64,000 bases of DNA from Hemicentrotus pulcherrimus (lineage: Eukaryota; Echinodermata; Echinoidea; Camarodonta; Strongylocentrotidae): contig BEXV01001750.1 in NCBI GenBank assembly GCA_003118195.1, positions 29,939 to 93,938 on the forward strand. Direction: 5' to 3'. The translations under genes and the position numbers were made by a program. Shown in pieces: positions 1 through 61,388 of the stretch. The notes under the pieces were generated by a model. The model was given only the letters and a program-made list of their open reading frames with translations. It was not told the origin of the DNA and ran no database searches. How positions within the stretch are numbered: position 1 is the stretch's first letter; every line of letters starts with the position of its first letter.

Positions 1-141
1 CCATCAATGATTTCTTGTTTGGTCTTTTGTAGTTCTTTCCTCATTTCTGTCAAGATCTCTTGCTTCAGTTTCTCATAATCCAGTGAGTTTTCACCTCCTC
101 CACTACCATTGCTGTTACCGTTGAGAGCAGGCTGTGATGGT
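1..141 (-). CDS. ena: Ena/VASP exon: tetramerisation coiled coil (partial, runs off window)
   Basis: This is the C-terminal part of the Ena/VASP protein. The exon opens after a TAG acceptor (CT on the plus strand at 142-143) and begins by completing a Gly codon. A Gly/Ser/Asn-rich spacer follows, then a heptad-like helix containing LDYEKLKQEILTEMRKEL and KTKQEIID. The family's tetramerisation domain has the same pattern of Leu/Ile/Val with alternating Lys and Glu; in VASP the helix reads LKxEL-like repeats and forms a right-handed parallel four-helix coiled coil. It lets the protein act as a processive tetramer on filament barbed ends. The window ends inside the helix, so the last dozen or so residues, the stop codon and the 3' UTR are not seen. 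Frame is continuous with the exon at 4226-4339. Confidence 0.93.
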
Positions 142-3100
142 CTACGTCTATAGTGGAGACAACATCATAGATGAAAGAAAGGGGTATAAAGTCAGACACA
201 TTGTCTTTCATCACAATGAATTATCAGGGTATTTGATGGGCCTATCTTTTGTTTGTTCCTGAGAATTATATCACATTTGCCGATAACTATTATTCTATTG
301 CAAATCATACGTTTTTCACAATAGCTTTTCAAATTAAAAGGGGTTTGCAAAAGCAGAAAAGGGATGGATGGGGAGCAAGTGGGAAGGGGTGGGGAGGGAT
401 GGAGAGAGGGCAGAATTTCAACAAAAATAAAGTACTGCAATTTGTATACACAGTTGACAGGTGTTAACAATACACCAATTTATACTTTAGATCAAGACTT
501 TAAAAAATATAATAATAAGAAAGCAAATACTTCCTTTAGGCTTTTACACTTTCAAACTGTCGGATACAGATGTATCTTTTCGAAAAAAGTACAGGTTGTT
601 ACTTAGCTATCATCTATGTATGAATAATTTTATGTAAGCGTCATAGTGCAAGTGGGATCAATCCAATTCTAAAATTTAGTAAGAAAAACTGAACAATGTT
701 CATTTTTTCAAATATTGATTCGAATTCTTATGTTCTACTAGTACTGATTTTGTTTACCGGTATATCTGAAAATTTGTGCGAACAGTTTTCTTTATAATTT
801 GTTATCTTTATGTAGTCAAATATCCATTTCAAAGTGTATTTTATCATAATTTATTTTTAAACAATATCATGCAAAATTATTTAGCTGTGCAAAGAAGGAA
901 ACACTTAAAATTGAAGATTTTGTACTTTTTTCTCTTTGTGATACAAGTCAATTAAAGATAACTATTCTCAACCCAATCAAAGGTTCATCATTGTCTGGCC
1001 AAACCGCATGTTTAATGATTATACTCAATTTGCAATGTCTTGAAAAGAAAATTTGGCAACAAATCTGTGGCCTGTCAACAGCTAATTGACCGGTAAACAC
1101 AAGATCTATGAAAGTAAATTGGCCAGAAAATGTTACAAGACTGAAGCATCGCAACTCTATGCTGTCTCAAATCTCTTTGATTTTAATGAAATGGTCGGTT
1201 TCCCCTGATTTTAGCATCACAGTGAATATAGGTTGAAGAAGTCTAAACTTTTGTGAGTGCAGTTTTATCACTATTATTATTTCTTTAACTTGGTGGGTGG
1301 CAAGAATCAGAGTATTTGTGACATAATATTATATCACTGTGTACAATGTTTAAAAATGTGAAGGTCTTCAGCTTTAATAGTCTCTGACTCTAATTTGATA
1401 ATGAACATAAATAACACATATCAAACCTTTTATGTCAAATATCAGTGGTGATGGATTACAAAATTATATTAAAATGTGCTTCTCCCAATATGTTGTCTAT
1501 ATATGAATATATGTACATTAAATATATTTAAAGAGTGGATATTAAAAAGTGCTACATATACATCATGATATAGTAATTGTGCAGAAATATATATTTTAAA
1601 TTGAGGTGAGTAATTTGTTTCTCTTGATAAGGCATGTGTATATAAGTGTGTGTATAATTATTGCAATGGTATAAAAGGATCTTTATTATCATTTTTATAT
1701 AAAATAGAGAATTTGTTGAATTTGTAAAAATATATTGGAAAATTCTAAAGGAGTACATTTCAAAATAACATTTTTTTTTCTCTCCCCAAAGAAAGAAAAG
1801 CATGTTTACAAAGGCAAACATTAAAAAAATTAAAATTAACATAAATTCAAAAAAAGATTTGGGATTAGAAGCATATAAAATAAGAATATATGTACACTGT
1901 ATATTTCCACCAACACCTCATGAATATTTAATACTTCTGGATAGCCCCTATATCTGTGCATCAACACCAATTAAATACCTTGTAGTACTCGTCTTGGCTA
2001 TCATAGAATTATGCCCTGCACATAGTTATGCTGTGAACAACTCTGAGCAATATTACATGCATAATCTAGTGTGCTGGTGGAAGAGAGCTTTCACACATGG
2101 TTTGGTTTCATATTCTTACACTTCTTGCATTAAAATGATAGCAAAACCATTATATCCCTATGAGATTTTATTTATTTTCTCTTAAAGTTGAAACCATATT
2201 TCTGCTGGATTTTAAAAATTGGTTCCTATAGTTTAACCAGCGATTAACACACATCACCTAAGAATATAAACTTTTCTTTACATAATTGTATTTATAAAGT
2301 GTCTACGGTACATTTTTACTTTTCTCTTCTTCTAAGTTCTTTAACAATGAATTAATGCAAAGTGTTTATTTACATTAAACCAGACCATTGTGAAGCTATC
2401 TGTAGGCACATTCACAAAGAACACCACATGGCAATCAAATTAGGTTCAGTTGAATTTTGGCACATAGCTCTGTCCAAAATCACTTGAGATCCTCAGTAAA
2501 ATAGGTATCAAGAAGACAAGCATTTTCTAGGTAGAACCAAACTGGATTTCACTGCCATGCTTCATCCAATATGAATATTGGCCTGCATGACCATATAATA
2601 GATAGGTAGGGCGTGTGCAAGCTAGGGAACCAACATGAGAACCAGCTAATGGGTATAGCATGCAGTGGACTTATCTTACCCAACAGGCCTGGGGGACTGA
2701 CTCCCAGGCGTGGGGGTGGCAGCTGGAGGTCGCACGCCATGCTGTCGACTTAAATATGGAACATGAAAGCACAAGCACACCAAAGCACATGAAATAACAA
2801 GATTTTCACAACGAAAGGCAGAAGAGTTATAGAAATAAGTACACAATAAAAATGTTGACAATTCTGCAAATCATCTTCAGATCCAACTCTCTGATTTGAG
2901 GGGTGGGAAACATTAGCCATGCACAGAGACTCACATAAAATGGATTTGCAAAATTGTCCACATTTATCAATAGTCCTGTACAATACTGCTAGTAAAATGC
3001 ACATTCCACAAAACCAAATGATATCTATATATTTCCTAATTAGAGGTTACCCTTAAAGGCACATAATGATTTGATACATCGAACATGCTTCATATACAAG

Positions 3101-4225: not shown

Positions 4226-4339
4226 CCTCCTGAAAATCCTGGAGATGTAGGGGTGTTGGTCTGATGTTGATCAACACCAGACGGAGGTCTCATGATCCTT
4301 ATACCATCCACGCTATTTCGATTGGACACAGGAGGAGGA
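4226..4339 (-). CDS. ena: Ena/VASP exon: Pro/Ser/Thr linker before the tetramerisation domain
   Basis: A 114-base exon (1 + 37 codons + 2) with acceptor AATGTAG and donor GTAAGA. It encodes a flexible linker that includes RPPPVSNRNSVDGIRIMRPP and ends TNTPTSPGFSGG. In VASP and Mena the same place, between the actin-binding motifs and the coiled coil, is a Ser/Thr/Pro-rich disordered stretch with phosphorylation sites; RNS here is a possible basophilic kinase site (inference). The frame joins the exons at 6179-6251 and 1-141 without a stop. On the transcript strand, a C-run and a long CAT/CAC-type repeat lie just upstream of the acceptor. Confidence 0.85.
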
Positions 4340-6178: not shown

Positions 6179-6251
6179 CGATTAAGTTGAGGGGAGGCAC
6201 TAGCAGTGGTATTATCAACACCATTTTTTCTTTCCCATGGTTTGGTAGTGG
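6179..6251 (-). CDS. ena: Ena/VASP exon: TKPWER linker
   Basis: A 73-base exon (2 + 23 codons + 2) after the acceptor TTTGTTTCAG and before the donor GTAAGG. It encodes TTKPWERKNGVDNTTASASP and QLN. The PWER/PWEK motif followed by a Ser/Thr-rich stretch is a hallmark of the Ena/VASP region between the F-actin-binding motif and the tetramerisation domain (VASP has RRPWEK there). Both junctions keep frame. It is probably disordered and a site of phosphoregulation, as in the family. Confidence 0.92.
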
Positions 6252-6814: not shown

Positions 6815-6881
6815 CTCTTGGAGCTCCCGGGGGTGATGTCCTACCCGATGGCTTGAGAGCCGAATCTGATGATGGATTCTC
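6815..6881 (-). CDS. ena: Ena/VASP exon: short Ser/Pro linker
   Basis: A 67-base exon (22 codons + 1) with acceptor TATATTTCCAG and donor GAG|GTAGGC. It encodes ENPSSDSALKPSGRTSPPGA and PR. It joins the F-actin-binding exon (phase 0) to the TKPWER exon (phase 1). The sequence itself is not diagnostic; the support is its position, two good splice sites, phase agreement on both sides, and a composition typical of the linker. GRTSPP could be a Pro-directed or basophilic phosphorylation site (inference). Confidence 0.78.
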
Positions 6882-7546: not shown

Positions 7547-7684
7547 TGAGGCTTGACGACGTTTGTTTAGTTTCTGCTGCAAGGAACTCATGAAATCACC
7601 TCCACCACCACCACCTGCAGGTGGTCTGTTACTACCGCCTCCACCACCGCCGCCTCCGCCAGACGAACCATCAGTGTTTTCATT
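7547..7684 (-). CDS. ena: Ena/VASP exon: poly-Gly and F-actin-binding motif
   Basis: A 138-base, 46-codon exon with phase 0 at both ends, acceptor TTTCAATACAG and donor TCA|GTAAGT. It encodes a Gly-rich segment with two Gly runs around SNRPPAG, then DFMSSLQQKLNKRRQAS. That last part matches the family's F-actin-binding (WH2-like) motif, in which an amphipathic helix of the type LMxxMxxxLxRRR is followed by basic residues; it tethers the protein along filaments. The exon follows the G-actin-binding exon directly, as in VASP, Mena and EVL. The basic cluster KRR is kept. Confidence 0.93.
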
Positions 7685-8089: not shown

Positions 8090-8463
8090 CCTGACAACTT
8101 TTTTTAATTTAGCTCCAGCTAATGCTGCTGCCAATCCTCCTGCTGTTCCTCCGCCTCCACCGCCGCCTCCTCCGCCTCCTCCTCCTGAGGATGCAGAGGG
8201 ACCCCCAATAGCTGGTGGTGGTGGTGGAGGGGGTGGGCCTCCACCTGCTGGTGGTGCTGGTGGGCCAGGAGGAGCAGGAGGAGCCGCTGGAGCTGCAGGA
8301 GTGGGTGGGGCTGCTGGAACAGCGGGTGGAGCCGGTGGTGCTGCTGGAACTGGAGGTGCTGCAGGAGCGGCTGGAGGCTGGGGCGGGGCTGGAGGAGCTG
8401 CTGGGGCTGGTCTGGATACGGCAGGAGGACCTGCTGGTGGTTCTGGTGGACTTGGTCTGGTGG
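8090..8463 (-). CDS. ena: Ena/VASP exon: proline-rich region and G-actin-binding motif
   Basis: A 374-base exon (2 + 124 codons) with acceptor TCCTTTGCAG and donor AGG|GTATGT. It encodes a long Pro/Ala-rich region of PPAPP and APPxP repeats, then GPPPPPPPPAIGG, a 13-Gly run, and TAGGLAAALAGAKLKKVVR. Known family roles: poly-Pro segments recruit profilin-actin and SH3/WW proteins, and LAxALAGAKLxKV is the thymosin-like G-actin-binding (GAB) motif that loads monomers. The octaproline followed by Ala-Ile-Gly, lying just before the GAB motif, resembles a profilin-actin loading site. In VASP the GAB motif is followed by a PKA/PKG-regulated Ser in the context KVSK; here the corresponding residues are KVVR, so that Ser is absent. 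Confidence 0.95.
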
Positions 8464-9510
8464 CTGCAAAGGAAGACAAGAAGAGCAAATCAATAACAAA
8501 TTTATCTTGCTGACTACCAACTTAAATTATTCCCATAGGCATGATAAAGGACCACTCTGTTTCTGTTACCAGTTATAGTTCAATACAATTCAATTACTGT
8601 ATGTACTGCCAAAGTGTACAAGAGAAAGTTTGTATGTTAACCCTATAGTACCACAGAGTTTTATAGTTTCATAACTGGAACTTCATTTGTCAAATTCATG
8701 AGTCTTAATTATAATTTGATTTGATTAAGTTTTACTCTAACACGGTAGCCCCACCACTATTTGACAAAAAAAGATCTTCCTGGGGGCACTGTATAAAAGA
8801 CTATCAATCTATTCCTATTGGTCAAGCAGGCAATCAATATTTCTTATGAAATAAAACTTTATCATGAACTTGGCTCTTTCTGTTTTTTTTAGAAAGAATA
8901 CACAAATTTTAGTTGAAATATTCACTACAACATTTAAACTCTCAGCTGAGTTATGCCACCTAGGACTTGGAAATGCCTTACAGACCAGTCATAATACACG
9001 TTTGTCAGCCTGTGTCAAAAGCGATCAACGCATTATCCATCACCTAATTTTGAAGGATAGGGGTAAGTTTGACCAATAATAAGAGGCAATTATAGCAAGG
9101 CTGTTCCCAAACAGTTGAAGTAGTCAGCTGTCCTAGCTAGCAAAGGAACTGGGATTTATAACTAGGTAGAAGGGCACATCCCTATGCCCCCCCCCCNTCT
9201 CTTAAAATAACTCTTATTTGAAGGAGCTGGATCATGATTTGTCTTCTAGGAAAGGTCACTGCGGATTGTGCATATGCCTGCATTAGTTCACAATGTCTGA
9301 ACAATGTGCACTGCAGGTATTGGACATTACCTAAAATGATCTGCAGATTATCAGAACATTTTTCTCTTTTGAAAACGGTATTTGCACACTATTATCAGTT
9401 CTAATGGATTAACCCAAAAACGAATCAATTGTATTCAAAATATGTCCATTGTAAGACTAAGATCTTCTCAAAGAGCTAATAGTTTTTTTCAATAATGGGT
9501 CATCTCCTAA

Positions 9511-9955
9511 TGCTAAGTTCACACCGACGCCGCATTGATGGCGCATTAAATCGGCGACCAAAGCGGCGGCAAAGCGTAACAAAGCTTGATTAAAGCGTAA
9601 AGACCGTAATAGACCATGAGAAAGCTTTGAGCAATTCAGGACATTCGGCAAGAACGCCAACATTTTTTTAAACTGTTTAAAAATTTGAGGCGATCTGTCA
9701 CGCATTGCGTAAAGCGGGGAGAGCGTATTAAAGCTTATCAAAGCGTCACAAAGCATATCAAAGCTTTGCTCAAAGCGTAGGAAAGCTTAACAGAGTTAAC
9801 ATTTTTTGGCGCTCTTGCCGAATGTCCCGAAATGTTAAAAGCTTTCTCATGCTCTATTACGGTCTTTACGCTTTAAGTAAGCTTTGTTACGCTTTGCCGC
9901 CGCTTTGTTCGCCGATTTAATGCGCCATCAATGCGGCATCGGTGTGAACTTAGCA
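9511..9955. mobile_element. PIF/Harbinger-like foldback MITE
   Basis: The left arm starts TGCTAAGTTCACACCGACGC and the right arm ends in its inverted counterpart, GGTGTGAACTTAGCA. The inverted repeat extends about 150 bases on each side, through GCATTGATGGCGCATTAAAT, GGCGGCAAAGCGTAAC and TAGACC...GAGAAAGCTTT, leaving a short centre. TAA flanks both ends (9508-9510 and 9956-9958), fitting the 3-bp TWA target duplication of PIF/Harbinger elements. No transposase is encoded. Repeated AAAGCGT/AAAGCTT words fill the arms. Confidence 0.8.
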
Positions 9956-9993
9956 TAACATATCTCAGGAGATCGTGAGATTTTTTGAAAAAA

Positions 9994-11363: not shown

Positions 11364-11428
11364 CGGGCATTGAATTATTGTCCAGACCTCCGCTTCTCCT
11401 ATTTGTATCCTGATGTTGGTTGTACAAC
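11364..11428 (-). CDS. ena: Ena/VASP exon: linker with RRS site
   Basis: A 65-base exon (1 + 21 codons + 1) with acceptor CTTGTGCAG and donor G|GTAAGT. It encodes RLYNQHQDTNRRSGGLDNNS and MP, directly before the proline-rich exon. In VASP the conserved regulatory PKA site (RRVS) is in this place, just upstream of the polyproline region. NRRSGG here may be its counterpart, though spacing differs from the classic RRxS pattern (inference). Both junctions are in frame. Confidence 0.82.
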
Positions 11429-12961: not shown

Positions 12962-13037
12962 CTGTCATTTTGTGAAGGTCCATTCGACAGAGAGCTTGGG
13001 GGAACTGGTGGAGCCATCTGCTGTGGCCTCGGAGGAG
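12962..13037 (-). CDS. ena: Ena/VASP exon: linker after EVH1 / alternative module junction
   Basis: A 76-base exon (2 + 24 codons + 2) with acceptor TTATTTTGCAG and donor GTAAGG. It encodes APPRPQQMAPPVPPSSLSNG and PSQND. The NGPSQ word matches the family's post-EVH1 linker (Mena has QNGPSQ in the same region), and PPVPPSS is a possible SH3-binding site. The exon accepts phase 1. That is the phase in which both the second EVH1 exon (31785-31956) and the 749-codon exon (18626-20873) end, so it is the probable common join for two alternative N-terminal modules. Confidence 0.9.
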
Positions 13038-15489: not shown

Positions 15490-16407
15490 NNNNNNNNNNN
15501 NNNNNNNNNNNNNNNNNNNNNNNNNNNNNNNNNNNNNNNNNNNNNNNNNNNNNNNNNNNNNNNNNNNNNNNNNNNNNNNNNNNNNNNNNNNNNNNNNNNN
15601 NNNNNNNNNNNNNNNNNNNNNNNNNNNNNNNNNNNNNNNNNNNNNNNNNNNNNNNNNNNNNNNNNNNNNNNNNNNNNNNNNNNNNNNNNNNNNNNNNNNN
15701 NNNNNNNNNNNNNNNNNNNNNNNNNNNNNNNNNNNNNNNNNNNNNNNNNNNNNNNNNNNNNNNNNNNNNNNNNNNNNNNNNNNNNNNNNNNNNNNNNNNN
15801 NNNNNNNNNNNNNNNNNNNNNNNNNNNNNNNNNNNNNNNNNNNNNNNNNNNNNNNNNNNNNNNNNNNNNNNNNNNNNNNNNNNNNNNNNNNNNNNNNNNN
15901 NNNNNNNNNNNNNNNNNNNNNNNNNNNNNNNNNNNNNNNNNNNNNNNNNNNNNNNNNNNNNNNNNNNNNNNNNNNNNNNNNNNNNNNNNNNNNNNNNNNN
16001 NNNNNNNNNNNNNNNNNNNNNNNNNNNNNNNNNNNNNNNNNNNNNNNNNNNNNNNNNNNNNNNNNNNNNNNNNNNNNNNNNNNNNNNNNNNNNNNNNNNN
16101 NNNNNNNNNNNNNNNNNNNNNNNNNNNNNNNNNNNNNNNNNNNNNNNNNNNNNNNNNNNNNNNNNNNNNNNNNNNNNNNNNNNNNNNNNNNNNNNNNNNN
16201 NNNNNNNNNNNNNNNNNNNNNNNNNNNNNNNNNNNNNNNNNNNNNNNNNNNNNNNNNNNNNNNNNNNNNNNNNNNNNNNNNNNNNNNNNNNNNNNNNNNN
16301 NNNNNNNNNNNNNNNNNNNNNNNNNNNNNNNNNNNNNNNNNNNNNNNNNNNNNNNNNNNNNNNNNNNNNNNNNNNNNNNNNNNNNNNNNNNNNNNNNNNN
16401 NNNNNNN
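15490..16407. other. Assembly gap (918 N)
   Basis: A run of N inside the intron between the 749-codon exon and the linker exon. Coding or repeat content cannot be judged. Confidence 0.99.
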
Positions 16408-18625: not shown

Positions 18626-20873
18626 CTTCTGCTATAATATCGTCCTGCTGGATTTCAACTTCATTTTCAACTTGATTCTCCTTCTCGATGGGAGCCTCAT
18701 TTCCTTCAGTAATTTCAGTGGAGCCCGCTCCCAATACAATACTCGCCGTACCGACTGCTGTAATCTCATCGCTCGCACTGCCTGCTACTTCAGGTACCTC
18801 CATCATTTCTGGCGATGATGGGGATGCAGCTATGGGCATTTGATGGGAGGATGATGACAAACTTGTGTTTGACAGATCAAGACCATCATCTGTCTTAGCC
18901 GGTGACCTTGGTTCCTCAAAGATAGGCGATAATGGAATCTGCGTCATCCCTATCTCTGCCAATGATGATGATGATGCTGTTGTTGTTAGACATGGTATTG
19001 GTAAGCTCATATCACGCATGTTGTTATCTTGGCAATCATTCCGCTGTTCTTGTTTTACATCATCTTGAACTTGGGCACTCTCACTTCCTTCCTGTTCTTC
19101 ATCTTTTGTTTCTGTACTGTCTGAGATTTCTACTGGCTTTTCTGTAACTTTGGTGGATTCTTTATCCTCGTTTACGGGAACATTATCAGCACTATTCAGC
19201 AATTCTTCTTTAACATCGCTTTCTACTTGAGAGTCATGAAAAGCACAATGAATAACATTATGCTCACTACTCATAACATCCATAGCAATACTTCCATCTT
19301 CACTTTTCTCAATAAGCTCACCATCCGTTTTGTCTTTGTTTTCGTCAGCATCTTCAGCCGGAGCTGCAGGTGATGCAGGCAGGAGGGTATCATTGACGGC
19401 TCCTTCATTAACTTCCGCCATGTCACTTTTATTTTCCTTTGTGTCTATCATCTCACACTCTGTGTTGTCTTCTTTATTGCTGGTGTCTTCATCAAGTTTA
19501 ATTTCTTGTTCATCTGCTGTGGCTGCTGGTGCAGACAATGGTGTGTCACTTGCAACTAGCTCTTGACTCTCAAATGCTGGCTGTTCAGGACTTGCCATCA
19601 CAGAAGGAGGTGATGGGTGCATTCCGTTGCTCATTTCTTCTACTTCAGGTAGGCAGTCAATGATGTCATCGGGAAACAGAATTTGAGGAGAGTTAAAAAA
19701 CTCTTGTGTCTCACCATGTCCTTCCTGTAATGAAGGTGGTGGTAGAGTATAGTCAGGTTCTGGTCCTGGCACATCATCAAGTTTTTTAGGTGTAGATTTG
19801 GCTGGTTTTGGAGGCACTGGTGGCAACTCTGTGTTATTGTTGGCATTCATATTATTGGATACAGAGCCATTCTCAATAAGAACTGACTTATTTTTGGTTG
19901 ATACATCATTTGCATTTGTATCTTGCCAGTTGGTTGACTTTCCTTGAAGACCTGTGATCCCCTCAGAATTCTTCATGTCGGATATGAAATTAACGTCAGA
20001 AGGATTATTTATGAGCTGGTTTGTTGTTAACTCTCCGTTTTCCCGGAACTGGTTGGCATCCATCATTTGATCAGAAGTGTCCATCTTGTTATCATCGATT
20101 GATTCCGAGTCTTCGTCACTCACAATCTTTGCTGCTGCCTTGGTCACAGACAATACAAGCTGTGAAGCAAGAGCTTGCTCAATGGCTCCTACTGCTAGAG
20201 CTCTAGCTTTCTCTTCGGCACTCAAAGGGCTGGGATCAATGTTCATAATAGTAGGTTCCTCGAACTGTACCTTGCTCACATTTGAGCAGTTAATGGAACC
20301 TGAATCCCCTTCATGGACAGAATTACCATTTAAGACGAGAGGGTGGAGCCCATCGGCTTCAATGTCAGGATACATAACAGACGATTCTGGAAAAGGGGCA
20401 GCAGGACCTTGGTCTAAGGCGGACAAAAGATTATTAACTGACATGGCATTCATGTTGTCTGTTGATATACCGACCGTCTGACAGGATCCCTGCTCATTAA
20501 CGCATCTCTCATGATCCCCGAGTGGCGTGATTAATCCCCCTTCCTGACTCTGACTACCACTTCCACCCTCAGCTCCGCCCCATGAACAGCCCCTGTCTGC
20601 TGCACAATTATTGCCCAACTTGGGAGCTACTGGTTGGAAGTTGCTGCTGCTGCTGCCTGTGACGTCGTCCATGTCACCTCCCAGTCCGCTGCTTTGATTC
20701 ATGGCAAAACCTACTTGCTTTCTCAGATTTATTGGTCTTGTATCCTGAGGTCCACTTGTTGCTACGTTCCCGTTGCTTCTGCCCAGTTGAACAGTAAGCT
20801 TAGAAACTGTCTTGCCCGCACCAGCTATGCTTCCATTAAAAGGATTAAAGCATTCCTTTCCTCGGTACGCCAT
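18626..20873 (-). CDS. ena: 749-codon exon with own start, spliced in frame to Ena/VASP C-terminal exons (candidate isoform without EVH1)
   Basis: One uninterrupted frame of 749 codons + 1 base, ending at a strong donor (GAAG|GTATGT). The ATG at 20873 has a strong context (CACAACATGG) and an in-frame TAA two codons upstream at 20880-20882, with no AG between, so the frame begins here unless an internal acceptor is used. Phase 1 at the donor matches the linker exon at 12962-13037. The protein looks mostly disordered, acidic and Ser/Asn-rich. Residues about 218-250 form a predicted Ala/Leu-rich amphipathic helix (core ALAVGAIEQALASQLVLSVT). Residues 350-359 (LPPVPPKPAK) fit an SH3-binding motif, and PEPDYTLPPPS follows. 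I recognise no folded domain. It could be an alternative first exon giving an isoform of about 1,100 residues without EVH1. It could instead be an internal exon entered through a weak AG at 20807-20808, which would also be in phase. A separate gene is unlikely, since the frame would need other downstream exons. Confidence 0.8.
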
Positions 20874-27775: not shown

Positions 27776-30039
27776 TAAACCTGCTCAGAGGGAGGCTCCC
27801 CAAACAAACAGGAGAGATTCGTCTGCATGAATATTATGGGGAGGGGTGTTAAAGAGTGAAAGAGAATCATCAGTAAGTATAAGATACAGAAGAAAGTTGG
27901 CTTTATCAAAAATACTGTAAAACATGACTATTTGTGTGCATGAAACTTATGAGAATTTCTCCAGTGATTCAGATTCGTAAAAGTTTCACACCGGGAAATA
28001 ATTAAATCACATTCAGTGTAACACAATTTGGAAATCTATCAAAATCTCTTGCCACGAAAGAGGTTGTCATTAACCATTCACAAAGGTTTCATGTCATATA
28101 AGTTTATGATTTTAAAGTAGGACATAATGATATACCATAAATTGAATTCATGATATATGAAGCTTACAAAAACCCTTAACCATAATAGTCCACACTGGCA
28201 AGGAGAGAATCCAGGGTTTTGTAATGTGGGGGGGGGGGCACCAGTTTTAAAAACATAACACAAATATGTAGGATACATTCTTTTTTAAAACTTAATTTTT
28301 GTCAATTGGTTACATAGAGATTATATTCTTCTACATCTATAGGGCAAGTTACTTCTTACAAGCAGCATTATATTTATCTGTTTTGGTTGCAAACAACGGG
28401 TATAAACTTTGAACTAGTGATGTCAGCAAAGTCTAATATATCACAGAGGGCATTCTTTCTCTGAAAGCTTGATATAGAATGCAGTGCTAGAGGTAGGTGA
28501 GCCATGGCCATTGGCTCCATGACCAAATACCACAAATTTCTTGACAATGGCTCACTACACTAGGTAGAAAATAACACAATAGAGCAGCTCATATCTACAG
28601 CTGCAAGTAATACAGTCATTAAATGTCCTGAAATATGATTTAATATTGGAATGAATAAAAGATCAAATTGAATTACCATCTAACAATCTATCAAAACTTG
28701 GAAGTGGCAGAGATAACAACCACATACAAAGCCCCATAAGGAAGTTGACCATTATCATTAATATAATGGGTTATAGTGGTTTCCATTTCGAGGTGGGAAG
28801 TGAAAACAATAATCTAAATTTGACACCCTTTCACAGATGGGTTGCAACTGAAACCAAATAATATTGATAATAATGTATCATTGCTCCTATTATATTATTC
28901 TCGTAACTCAAGTCCTATTAGTCTAAATTTAACATTTCAGGTGCTAAAGTGTTATTTCTTTTTAACCATACACTTTTAAATATGATATGTTTTAAATCAA
29001 GAGTTGTAGAAACAAACTTCCTATGAGGATGAGAGCTCAAGATTGAGACCCAAAATTTCTGCTTCACAGATCTTCTAAATAGACATCAGACAATTTATAA
29101 GACCATGAGCATCACAATCCAAGACACCAACATGTCGCTCTTGCAGGCCTTTTCTGGGGGTCATGAGACAGACCGTGTTGGTCTCATGAGCTATGGATCT
29201 AATAGGAAGAATTACTGTAAACCTCCTTGTAGTCTTTAGAGAAACCATCGAGATGATGGAGAACACAGGAAAACCACAGATAAAAATCAAGGGGAGCAAC
29301 GTGTACCGCCCTACCTTGTGGCCTATCCTGACATCCTGCCCAAGTCATGTGAATGCAACATATTCAAATCACCTGGCCTAAAGCAGGATTTACACTTGAT
29401 TAAGAAGGGAGGAGATATCTATTATTGAACAGCCTTCTTGAGAATGGATCACAAGGAGATCCGAGAAGGAAGATGTAATTTTATACTAGTTTATCATTAT
29501 TATTGATATGTTGTGTTTGTCAAATAAAACATTTCTTAGAAAGAAAAATAATGAGATTTGATCCCTACAGCATACCAGCCAGGGGCAATTAGCAGTTTGC
29601 AGTTTCATTACAATGACTGCTTCCTCAACCAATGACCTTTGTAAATCCATCGACAAAGTCTGAACAAAAGGCTGCCCTCTACGCGTACAGACAGTATAAT
29701 TTGGAACGTCCAACTAGGCTCATTCACCCCCATGAAAACAGACTTGCAATGTTGTCTTTTTACCAACAAATAATTTGAAACCTGTATAAGTTTTTTTAGC
29801 TTCACAAATTTTGAAACATTTTTGGTAAAATCTCATAAAATATGTTTTGATCCAAAAAGGCACATAAGTCTATCACGTCATCTTATCGTACACTTCAAAG
29901 TTTCACCTATAATTCTATTACTTCAAAATTTGTTTATCATTATGCCCATGCCTCACTTATACATTAGATATATCACATGTGTAGCCTGTTCCTGCAAATT
30001 GAGACAGAAAAATTAAGTCAAGGCTTTAACAGTTCTCTA

Positions 30040-30507
30040 TACAGTGCGTCCCAGAAAAAACGAAAACAAGAATTATCAATGTTTTATCATAACTTAGTCA
30101 CATTTCTAATTGATAAATGACACATATTTGGAAAGCTTACATCCTCCTCTTTCATTTGATGCAACTCATATCATGCATATTTCACGCATGAGTGATTAAA
30201 ATCAATTTGAAGAGAGGAAACCGAAACGTCACTTGGTGGCACTATCTGAATTTCAGAGAGAAAATCACATTTCTAAAAAGTTGGGTTTTTGCCCTTTCAT
30301 ACATTGTCTGCCAAATGAATATTTGTTTTCCTCACTTCAAATTGATTTTAATCACTCATGCGTGAAATATGCATGATAATAGTTGCATCAAATGAAAGAG
30401 GAGGATCTAAGCTTTCCAAATATGTGTCATTTATCAATTATAATTATGCTTAAGTTATGATAAAACATCGATCATTCTCAGTATCGTTTCGTCTGGGACG
30501 CACTGTA
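30040..30507. mobile_element. Tc1/mariner-like palindromic MITE with TA duplication
   Basis: The left end is TACAGTGCGTCCCAGA and the right end TCTGGGACGCACTGTA, flanked by TA at 30038-30039 and 30508-30509. The two halves are inverted copies over about 150 bases each; for example ATCAATTTGAAG on the left pairs with CTTCAAATTGAT on the right. The unpaired centre carries no transposase. TA duplication and CAGTGCGTCCC ends fit non-autonomous Tc1/mariner elements. Confidence 0.88.
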
Positions 30508-31392
30508 TATTCCCAATATATCAATTCCACTTGCAACAAAACATTGCAACACCAGTTTTCTTACTCAACAAGAACCAGACAGATTTGTAATCGACAATAT
30601 AGGTCATGATCATGATATATACATTATTCCAGTATTTCCCCACAAAGTAGAGCATCCACAAAGTAGAGCAACTACAAGTATAAATAGCTCAGATAGAACC
30701 TTACTTTTTATTTTAACCTGGATATTGGCCTGTCTGTCATGATCATGTTCTGATCCCTGCAGAGAGGTGACCCGAGAATCCTCTTTGAAATAACAGACTT
30801 GGCCTTCCCTAACCTTTCAAAAAGTTATTCTGGACCTCTGAACGAATCCAAATTACTTCAGACACACTTTTGATTTTTTAGGCTCAAACTGTCAACATTT
30901 GGAACAAAAATTTAGCCTTTTCAACTCATGATATGTTATTTGGCTAATGAACAGAAAATCCAGTTTCCGTTTAATCGCCTTGCACAATAAAATACTGTTT
31001 GCAGTTTTGTGATCAGATGCCAGATGCTTCTGTTGTACATGTTTTCCAATAGGATATAAAGGTTTAAGTCTTGCATTATTATCATCTTTGTGTCAATTAG
31101 TGAGTACTTTACAGCCGGGCAATGTAGAGACAGTTTTATCTAAAACTTTATACTTTTAACTTTGCAGAGCCACATGAAGTAGTTATCTTGCTCTCCAATG
31201 CTGTCAAAGGAATATACTATTCTGCCCTCTCTTGTCCTGAAACAGACAACTACCTCACAGTAAGTTGAAATGGGCAACAATCTACATGCACCCAACACCA
31301 CTACAAACAGATTGATGTAAAACTGTATAAATATGATTCCCTAGTTTTTTATGTGAAAAGGTCTAAGTCGGGAGGGGATATGTACTGTAAAG

Positions 31393-31758: not shown

Positions 31759-32046
<288 letters not shown>

Positions 32047-45107: not shown

Positions 45108-45276
45108 TGTGTTATCCTGCATTATCCTCCCTACAACTCGGTAGGTGTTGTTCTGTTGGTGTTGGTAGATTTGAACTCTAGCTACTCCTTGGATGCCTTC
45201 AGCAGGCAGCCATTTCCTCGCTTCATTATCGTAGATCATCACCGCCGCATGCGATGAACACACTGGTCTCTCCATG
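45108..45276 (-). CDS. ena: Ena/VASP exon: EVH1 domain, N-terminal half, with candidate start
   Basis: A 169-base exon (1 + 56 codons) with acceptor TTTCTTTGGCAG, one base, then ATG at 45275, and donor ACA|GTAAGT. It encodes MERPVCSSHAAVMIYDNEAR and KWLPAEG, then RVQIYQHQQNNTYRVVGRIM. This is the first half of an EVH1 domain. Tyr15 and Trp22, counted from this Met, correspond to the polyproline-binding Tyr16 and Trp23 of Mena. The ATG two bases after the splice acceptor (ATGG context) fits a protein starting here from a non-coding upstream exon. The single base before ATG would also complete a codon from a phase-2 coding exon upstream, giving an N-terminal extension. Confidence 0.96.
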
Positions 45277-47915: not shown

Positions 47916-48409
47916 TAGTGCTGTAACATCACGGATATCTCCAATTCCGTTTAATCGCCAGTCAAAACCGGATGGTTTTCGGTTAAACGATTTAAAAAAA
48001 AAAAAAAAAAANNNNNNNNNNNNNNNNNNNNNNNNNNNNNNNNNNNNNNNNNNNNNNNNNNNNNNNNNNNNNNNNNNNNNNNNNNNNNNNNNNNNNNNNN
48101 NNNNNNNNNNNNNNNNNNNNNNNNNNNNNNNNNNNNNNNNNNNNNNNNNNNNNNNNNNNNNNNNNNNNNNNNNNNNNNNNNNNNNNNNNNNNNNNNNNNN
48201 NNNNNNNNNNNNNNNNNNNNNNNNNNNNNNNNNNNNNNNNNNNNNNNNNNNNNNNNNNNNNNNNNNNNNNNNNNNNNNNNNNNNNNNNNNNNNNNNNNNN
48301 NNNNNNNNNNNNNNNNNNNNNNNNNNNNNNNNNNAAACCATCCAATTGAAAACGGAATCCGCCATGGGCGGTCAGATACCGGACGGTTAAACGTTTGACT
48401 ACAGCACTA
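47916..48409. mobile_element. Inner hAT element inserted in the outer one
   Basis: TAGTGCTGTAACATCACGG at the left and GACTACAGCACTA at the right are flanked by the perfect 8-bp duplication CTTACATT at 47908-47915 and 48410-48417. Sub-terminal CGGTTAAACG words occur in both arms. The centre is unresolved (N at 48012-48334), so coding content cannot be judged, but at 494 bases as assembled it is too short for a transposase. Confidence 0.88.
48012..48334. other. Assembly gap (323 N) inside the inner hAT element
   Basis: A run of N preceded by an A homopolymer. It probably marks a repeat that could not be assembled. Confidence 0.99.
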
Positions 48410-60068: not shown

Positions 60069-60855
60069 GACAAAAATTGTAACTCCTGTATATCACATGT
60101 ATGTACTGATTTCCAAGAAACGGTCATTCAAATTTCATATCGAGAACATGAAAATAGCATCCAACACTTGAAACCTTACATATTTTATACTGGGGCTCAA
60201 ACTCACAGCCTTTGCATCTCCAGATGTAGATGTTGATTGAGAAACTTTTTTTTACTTTTTTTTCAAAAAGTATTTTTATAAATACTTCACTTACAAAAAT
60301 ATCTTTTCAAGAACACACGGATGAAAACATTGCAGTATACCATGATTAAGATTGAATAAATGTAAGGCTTAGCTGTTTCTGCCAAGTCAAACAAAATAGA
60401 AGGATGCCATTCTTCAAAAGTCTCCATAGATAACAATCTAGATTTAACCAAACATTATATAAGCCTACATGTACTCCATGTTACATAATTGTTTGGAGTA
60501 TGGCAAGTTTTGCATACCTATCTTGTAAAATGATAGAAGTTGAATGACATATTAAATATGAAACGTAGGCAACTAGCTGAAGCTGGCAGAGACTCAGAGT
60601 TCAAATTAATATAGATCCCTATAAGATATCATAAATGAGATCTGATATTACGTATTCTTTGAGTCCTTCCTTGATATGGAATACCCATCTAATCAATCTA
60701 TGCACAGGTGTAATTCATGACACATAGGCAGACAACAACAAGAGGATCCATGTCTTTCTCTAATCCTTCTTAATTTCTGCGGTTGCCTTCATGGATTTAT
60801 TCCAATCCAAGACAATTAGCTATGTCTACTCATATGCAAAAAGGAAGACATTCAC

Positions 60856-61388
60856 CTCATCGATTCCTTCACTTCCCTGCTCTTCAATTCTTTTGCAATC
60901 TGTTGCCAGCTGTCCTGGCTTTGTGGGTAATCTTGTTGAGGAGGCAACGCTATTCCGCGTCTTTTGTTGTACCACTCCTGATCATAGGCTGGCCTGCATG
61001 TAGCTGAAGCAGGAGGCTGCATTGGTGTGACCGGAAGGTTCATGAGCCTTTGATTTCCTTGATAGTGTTCACAAGGGAGGCCAAACCTGGAGGATGATGG
61101 GAGCATTGCCGATGGTGCACCAGCATCAAACCTTGAGGCGGGCTGGTGGGGCTGGTGCTGTCCCTCCCCGTCATGGGAACCTGTAGCCAGGGGCACTGCA
61201 GAGGTATCGAAAAAACCAGAGCTGCCGCAACTTACGCCAGAGCTACTCTCACAAACACTACTAACCCCATCGCCCCCTTCTCCTCCTCCTTCTTCAATCA
61301 TCTCCACGACAGGTCCCGAACGTAGCACTCCCTCTCGCATTCTGCCAAATTGCAGCGAAATGGTTATTTCTGCAGTCCAACCAGACAT
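60856..61388 (-). CDS. Candidate 177-codon first exon encoding an N-terminal extension of EVH1
   Basis: The frame opens at ATG 61388 (MSGWTAEITISLQFGRMREG) and runs 177 codons + 2 bases to a plausible donor, ATGAG|GTGAAT, just before an in-frame TGA. Phase 2 fits the one base before ATG in the EVH1 exon at 45108-45276, so the two would fuse as ...KESM-S-MERPV.... The protein is Gly/Glu- and Ser-rich, then Pro/Gln-rich with PAYDQEWYNKRRGIALPP, and looks disordered. I recognise no domain. Drosophila Ena also has long N-terminal isoforms (family knowledge), so an extension is not without parallel. It could also be the first exon of an unrelated gene or a chance frame, but 177 codons in AT-rich sequence is unusual. 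Confidence 0.5.

Follow-up and report, generated by a model that had tools for sequence, protein, structure and literature searches.

Within an intron of an Ena/VASP gene of the sea urchin Hemicentrotus pulcherrimus lies a reading frame of 749 codons, which raises the question of whether it belongs to that gene and, if so, what protein the combination would encode. The window, meaning the whole stretch of 64,000 nucleotides analyzed here, comprises bases 29939-93938 of its contig, and its end is the end of the contig; genome-wide searches covered the assembly of 414 Mb in 4189 contigs. We put the probability at about 0.84 that the frame is a conserved alternative first coding exon of the Ena/VASP (enabled) gene, spliced from 18626 to 13037. 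This reading is preferred because the frame is open, contains conserved blocks, ends at a strong donor and matches the phase of the downstream exon, and because the same join is found in a gene model from Diadema setosum.

The minus strand of the window appears to encode an Ena/VASP gene, whose exons were read from the sequence. EVH1 exon 1 of the canonical isoform (45108..45276, minus strand, ATG at 45275), which was missing from the earlier note, was found by tblastn. EVH1 exon 2 (31785..31956, minus strand) ends in the phase-1 donor cag/GTATGT. The first shared exon, 12962..13037, accepts phase 1 and starts APPRPQQ..., with APPRPQ identical in the Diadema protein P0002. The remaining shared exons on this strand are 11364..11428; 8090..8463, which carries the proline-rich region with PPPPPPPP and the G-actin-binding-like LAAALAGAKLKKV; 7547..7684, with the F-actin-binding-like MSSLQQKLNKRR; 6815..6881; 6179..6251; 4226..4339; and 2..147, which encodes most of the VASP tetramerization domain. 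The last coding exon (AIKLELSRR stop) is on the same contig just beyond the window (L002, 9364 downwards). Both actin-binding-like motifs were read directly in the sequence and aligned with P0002, and we take them to resemble the human G- and F-actin-binding motifs. A stretch of 62 bases with GT-AG borders between shared exons (2680-2741, minus strand) breaks the frame and was left out of the models.

The canonical joined frame is 473 amino acids long with a terminal stop only, and its product matches WH1 (8.7e-30) and VASP_tetra (1.5e-16) in Pfam; the best PDB match of its EVH1 domain is Enabled homolog (7.8e-42). The EVH1 form is predicted to be encoded by this same gene, since the EVH1 exons lie on the same contig and in frame with the shared exons. 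Throughout the genome, VASP_tetra was matched in at least one place (five candidates scored) and WH1 in at least eight, two of which are the EVH1 exons of the Ena/VASP gene. Four of the six other WH1 places had no tblastn match at 0.01 to Ena/VASP EVH1 queries (two human EVH1 domains and the window's own EVH1), and the other two gave weak tblastn matches of 31-39 percent identity over 36-59 residues. Two introns hold inverted repeats. One, with arms of 168 bases at 9510-9677 and 9789-9956 (90 percent complementary, 111-base spacer), looks like a small foldback element; the other, in the intron after EVH1 exon 2, has 199-base arms at 30038-30236 and 30311-30509 (88 percent complementary, 74-base spacer) and is probably a foldback element too.

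The 749-codon frame (20873..18627, minus strand) contains no stop, and together with one further nucleotide, 18626, it forms an exon at 18626..20873 that runs from an ATG at 20873 to the phase-1 donor aag/GTATGT. The probability of 749 open codons is 3.1e-19 given the dinucleotides of the exon and 1.8e-22 given those of the window. Only five ORFs of at least 130 amino acids (table 1) occur in the window: that of the exon, which runs on into the intron to reach 764 amino acids, two that span the N run 15490-16407, another spanning the N run 48012-48334, and one of 178 amino acids at 60852-61388. The exon ATG has a strong context (A at -3, G at +4) and is preceded by an in-frame TAA at 20882-20880, six bases upstream. 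Scored with a splice-site matrix, the exon donor ranks 9th among the 3534 N-free GTs of the minus strand, and that of EVH1 exon 2 ranks 8th. The earlier note had described an open frame with a strong-context ATG, an in-frame stop just upstream and a near-perfect donor in phase 1, and each of these features is borne out. The exon is located within an 18.7-kb intron that separates EVH1 exon 2 from the proline-rich exons, and one place in the genome matched it. Its composition is acidic, with 134 D/E against 44 K/R, and its charge-hydropathy value of -0.074 falls on the disordered side; on composition alone, the encoded N-terminus is probably disordered. No Pfam family scored above cut-off against the exon and no PDB chain matched it up to E 0.1. 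A Pfam match to TpcC at 0.12 was taken as chance.

EVH1 exon 2 and the 749-codon exon both end in phase 1, each making an alanine with the first bases of exon 13037-12962, which continues both in frame. The frame joined from 18626 to 13037 is 1109 amino acids long and, like the canonical frame, has its only stop at the end, as expected from the phase match that had been proposed. The predicted 1109-residue isoform matches the VASP tetramerization family PF08776 at 1.7e-16. WH1 is absent from it: the exon alone has no Pfam match above cut-off, and VASP_tetra is the sole family matched by the final 700 of the 1109 residues. Against the PDB, the top row is 8gav_A (1.4e-06), labeled Neuraminidase, with further rows representing VASP-neuraminidase chimeras; the VASP chains 1use and 1usd were matched at 5.8e-05 and 1e-04. 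The proline-rich region would be kept, and with it, judging by sequence, a putative capacity for profilin binding.

A protein search with the exon recovered three relatives, P0001 to P0003, among 7966 scored candidates. P0002 is an NCBI protein of Diadema setosum, a database model of 1012 amino acids filed as "uncharacterized protein". Its first two thirds are a homologue of the exon and its last third is Ena/VASP; the junction reads EEAPPRPQ, compared with IIAEAPPRPQ predicted from the window, and the two agree in start region, frame and donor position. In a global alignment, the exon part is identical at 233 of 547 aligned positions and the tail at 203 of 329. Pfam assigns VASP_tetra to P0002 (3.2e-16) and neither WH1 nor any other family up to E 0.1. 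The prediction of an EVH1-less Ena/VASP protein of about 1,100 residues, made by joining 18626 to 13037, is thus matched by this gene model. P0001 (755 amino acids) is 88 percent identical, with 659 of 739 positions identical to the exon, and P0003 (868 amino acids) is 31 percent identical over 56 percent of the query. The exon aligns with P0002 at an E value of 9e-31 and with P0003 at 1e-37, and all three relatives are without stops by construction, because they are predicted proteins. The ends of P0001 (...AEGMYWLNCF...) and P0003 (...EEKGMS) appear to fit read-through of a GGTATG donor at the same place.

P0002 was the sole annotated protein found with the exon-Ena/VASP join among the scored candidates. 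A search with the C-terminal part found three proteins among 635 scored candidates, namely P0002 and two EVH1-containing Ena proteins of ordinary lengths (400 and 493 amino acids), one from Apostichopus japonicus and a second, unnamed one. The C-terminal part is 52 percent identical to Diadema, versus 41 percent to Apostichopus. Neither this search nor a profile search, which gave two matches among 7997 scored candidates, yielded an additional exon-bearing protein. P0002 was not among the profile matches, though its N-terminal part is a row of the profile. The 635 candidates of the C-terminal search also returned no echinoid EVH1-form Ena, so little can be read into the lack of the exon in other annotated urchins.

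The phase shared by EVH1 exon 2 and the 749-codon exon would equally suit a cassette, in which all of the exon, or the final three quarters of it, is included after EVH1 to give a long EVH1-containing Ena/VASP protein. The earlier note had suggested such inclusion through the AG at 20808-20807. That site is indeed in phase, but it is weak: with 20806 as first exon base it scores -7.39, at the 0.255 quantile of 3545 AGs. There are 204 AGs inside the exon, 101 of them in phase and open to the donor, and 14 of these 101 score above -0.82, the value of the weakest of nine acceptors scored for the gene. The ten in-phase open AGs between 20873 and 20600 are weak, however, the best of them (20824) scoring -1.47 and so falling below -0.82. 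The five highest-scoring AGs in 21400-20600 (20778, 21038, 21276, 21184 and 21173) lead to stops after 5-13 residues, as does the AG nine bases 5' of the ATG (20882). The best in-phase acceptor inside the exon, cctttt-ccag with first exon base 20386, lies 487 bases within it and scores 8.17 (0.996 quantile); its use would yield EVH1, 587 exon residues and a further 360, or about 1060 amino acids. Beginning at 20386 would, however, remove two conserved blocks (residues 13-32 and 111-130), and the residues surrounding this site are common to P0001 but not to P0002 or P0003. Because it skips these blocks and its surroundings are unconserved in P0002 and P0003, we regard the 20386 form as a possible extra form and not as the explanation. 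Moreover, P0002 has no WH1 match, and the three proteins found (length window 412-1310 amino acids) included none with both parts. Overall, inclusion as a cassette seems unlikely to account for the exon.

We also considered whether the exon belongs to another gene, nested within the Ena/VASP intron, and splices elsewhere, for instance into the N run 15490-16407, the Diadema model then being a false merge. In favor of this, the exon matches neither a Pfam family above cut-off nor a PDB chain, and 918 bases of the intron are unread. Against it, the exon is compatible in phase and frame with the shared exon, P0001 and P0003 end as expected for a donor at that position, and the join in the Diadema model is precisely there; a false merge would need the same phase and the same exon boundary by chance. 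We consider a nested gene very unlikely. That the exon is a leftover from which no active isoform is made is more improbable again: most of it is poorly conserved (16 percent three-way identity) and its composition is acidic and of low complexity, but it keeps 749 stop-free codons in the window, aligns significantly with P0002 and P0003, and has one block above and three at the shuffle limit given below.

The 16 percent of exon positions that are identical in the window, P0002 and P0003 are clustered. The best 20-residue segment, 341-360, has a three-way identity of 0.65 (13 of 20 identical); segments 111-130, 230-249 and 405-424 reach 0.55, 13-32 reaches 0.50 and 645-664 reaches 0.45. The limit, 0.55, is the 99.9th percentile of the highest value obtained when the conserved flags were shuffled 1000 times; by that test alone one block exceeds it, three equal it and two fall short. 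The strongest block contains NMNANNNTELPPVPPKPAK (exon residues 341-359; 19797..19853, minus strand), in which LPPVP overlaps PPVPPK. Class II SH3 ligands follow the pattern PxxPx[KR], which is present at this block in all four sequences. LPPVP or YPPVP is likewise found there in four of four sequences, two of which are 88 percent identical, compared with 0.13-0.21 matches expected per shuffled sequence. The block consensus, NNNTx[LY]PPVPPKP, thus fits the patterns of both EVH1 and SH3 ligands, and LPPVP/YPPVP is a candidate EVH1 ligand that conforms to the consensus (F/W/L/Y)PxPhiP (PMC10340426).

A second conserved stretch, AEEKARALAVGAIEQALASQLVLSVTKAAAKI (exon residues 219-250; 20124..20219, minus strand), is probably a helix. 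A permissive AKAP signature had four matches in the exon, three of them between residues 223 and 254, compared with 0.6-0.7 expected, and it also matched the counterparts of residues 223-254 in P0002 and P0003. Because the stretch is alanine-rich, an AKAP-like anchoring helix is a lead only. In P0003, residues ~427-625 hold repeats of the PPxPxRPxFxFxKEGE type that multiply SH3-ligand-like motifs (431, 494, 558 and 616), and this protein also has one FPPPP motif (554).

We propose that the 18.7-kb intron downstream of EVH1 harbors a promoter, or a non-coding first exon, from which a transcript would start; its translation would begin at the ATG at 20873, and splicing would connect 18626 to 13037. 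The product would be a 1109-residue Ena/VASP protein retaining the proline-rich region, actin-binding-like motifs and tetramerization helix, with 749 acidic, probably disordered residues replacing EVH1. Such an isoform would tetramerize with itself or with canonical chains and would still elongate actin. It may be placed by its own conserved linear motifs (the overlapping EVH1/SH3 ligand, the helix and the acidic blocks) and not by EVH1 binding to FP4-type ligands, and EVH1-dependent effects would be missing. We infer placement by its own motifs, and mixed tetramers, from these motifs together with the EVH1-deletion results in C. elegans and Drosophila described below. A more tentative idea, which we consider doubtful, is that the alternative promoters produce opposite partners, the canonical chain reading FP4-type ligands and the EVH1-less chain carrying such a ligand at its best conserved place. 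If this were true, mixed assemblies could attract canonical Ena/VASP or SH3 adaptors, or cluster them, with no need for external EVH1 ligands.

The direct counterpart of the predicted isoform is P0002, with an exon homologue and an Ena/VASP half but no EVH1; it differs in length (1012 versus 1109 residues) and in being a database model that is not named Ena/VASP. The vertebrate Mena "+" or 6L exon of the large neuronal form is similar in being a large alternative coding exon that adds SH3-ligand sequence. It encodes 228 or 242 amino acids (PMC10340426, PMC2898656) and is internal, in the proline-rich region, whereas the present exon would stand first, in a product that lacks EVH1. The variants mentioned in the available parts of reviews and of a splice study are EVL-I, Mena-INV, Mena11a, Mena delta-v6, a form from spleen that lacks the proline-rich region, and the large "+" exon of Mena; none of them is described there as EVH1-less. 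Mena-INV, Mena11a, Mena delta-v6 and EVL-I are also Ena/VASP isoforms generated by exon choice, but as described there they carry small inserts, or skip an exon, after EVH1.

Engineered proteins come closer in architecture. Drosophila EnaProEVH2 and C. elegans UNC-34 delta-EVH both combine the proline-rich region with EVH2 and lack EVH1, although they are laboratory constructs without a replacement N-terminus. According to the portions available of the respective studies, EnaProEVH2 did not reduce Dia-induced filopodia, unlike full-length Ena, and it can lower Dia actin assembly in pyrene assays (PMC3992947); localization of UNC-34 delta-EVH was reduced but not abolished, and EVH1 binding in C. 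elegans was predicted from an LPPPP motif (PMC8290545). The earlier note knew of no described isoform of the present form. This agrees with the accessible parts of the open-licence literature, in which we found no natural Ena/VASP isoform that is EVH1-less or has an alternative first exon, the EVH1-less ones being laboratory constructs, and with the open-licence echinoderm and sea urchin papers listed, whose titles and opening abstract lines showed no such isoform. A conserved natural EVH1-less isoform, if real, would imply that actin elongation and tetramerization have been uncoupled from EVH1 targeting, in at least one lineage of animals, through the choice of first exon, and it would be a natural counterpart to the EVH1-deletion constructs. 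Searches based on EVH1 would miss such isoforms, as illustrated by the filing of the Diadema protein as uncharacterized.

One further frame concerns the EVH1 form. Upstream of EVH1, 60856-61388 (minus strand) holds 177 codons plus two bases, with no Pfam match and no similarity to the 102-residue extension that precedes EVH1 in P0005. Its donor, gag/GTGAAT, is fair (rank 44 of 3534) and in phase 2, and the frame would join EVH1 exon 1 (cag/C ATG) in frame as ...S-MERPVC. In P0005, an S also stands before the M at the border of the extension. The 60856-61388 frame may be an exon that extends the EVH1 form at its N-terminus.
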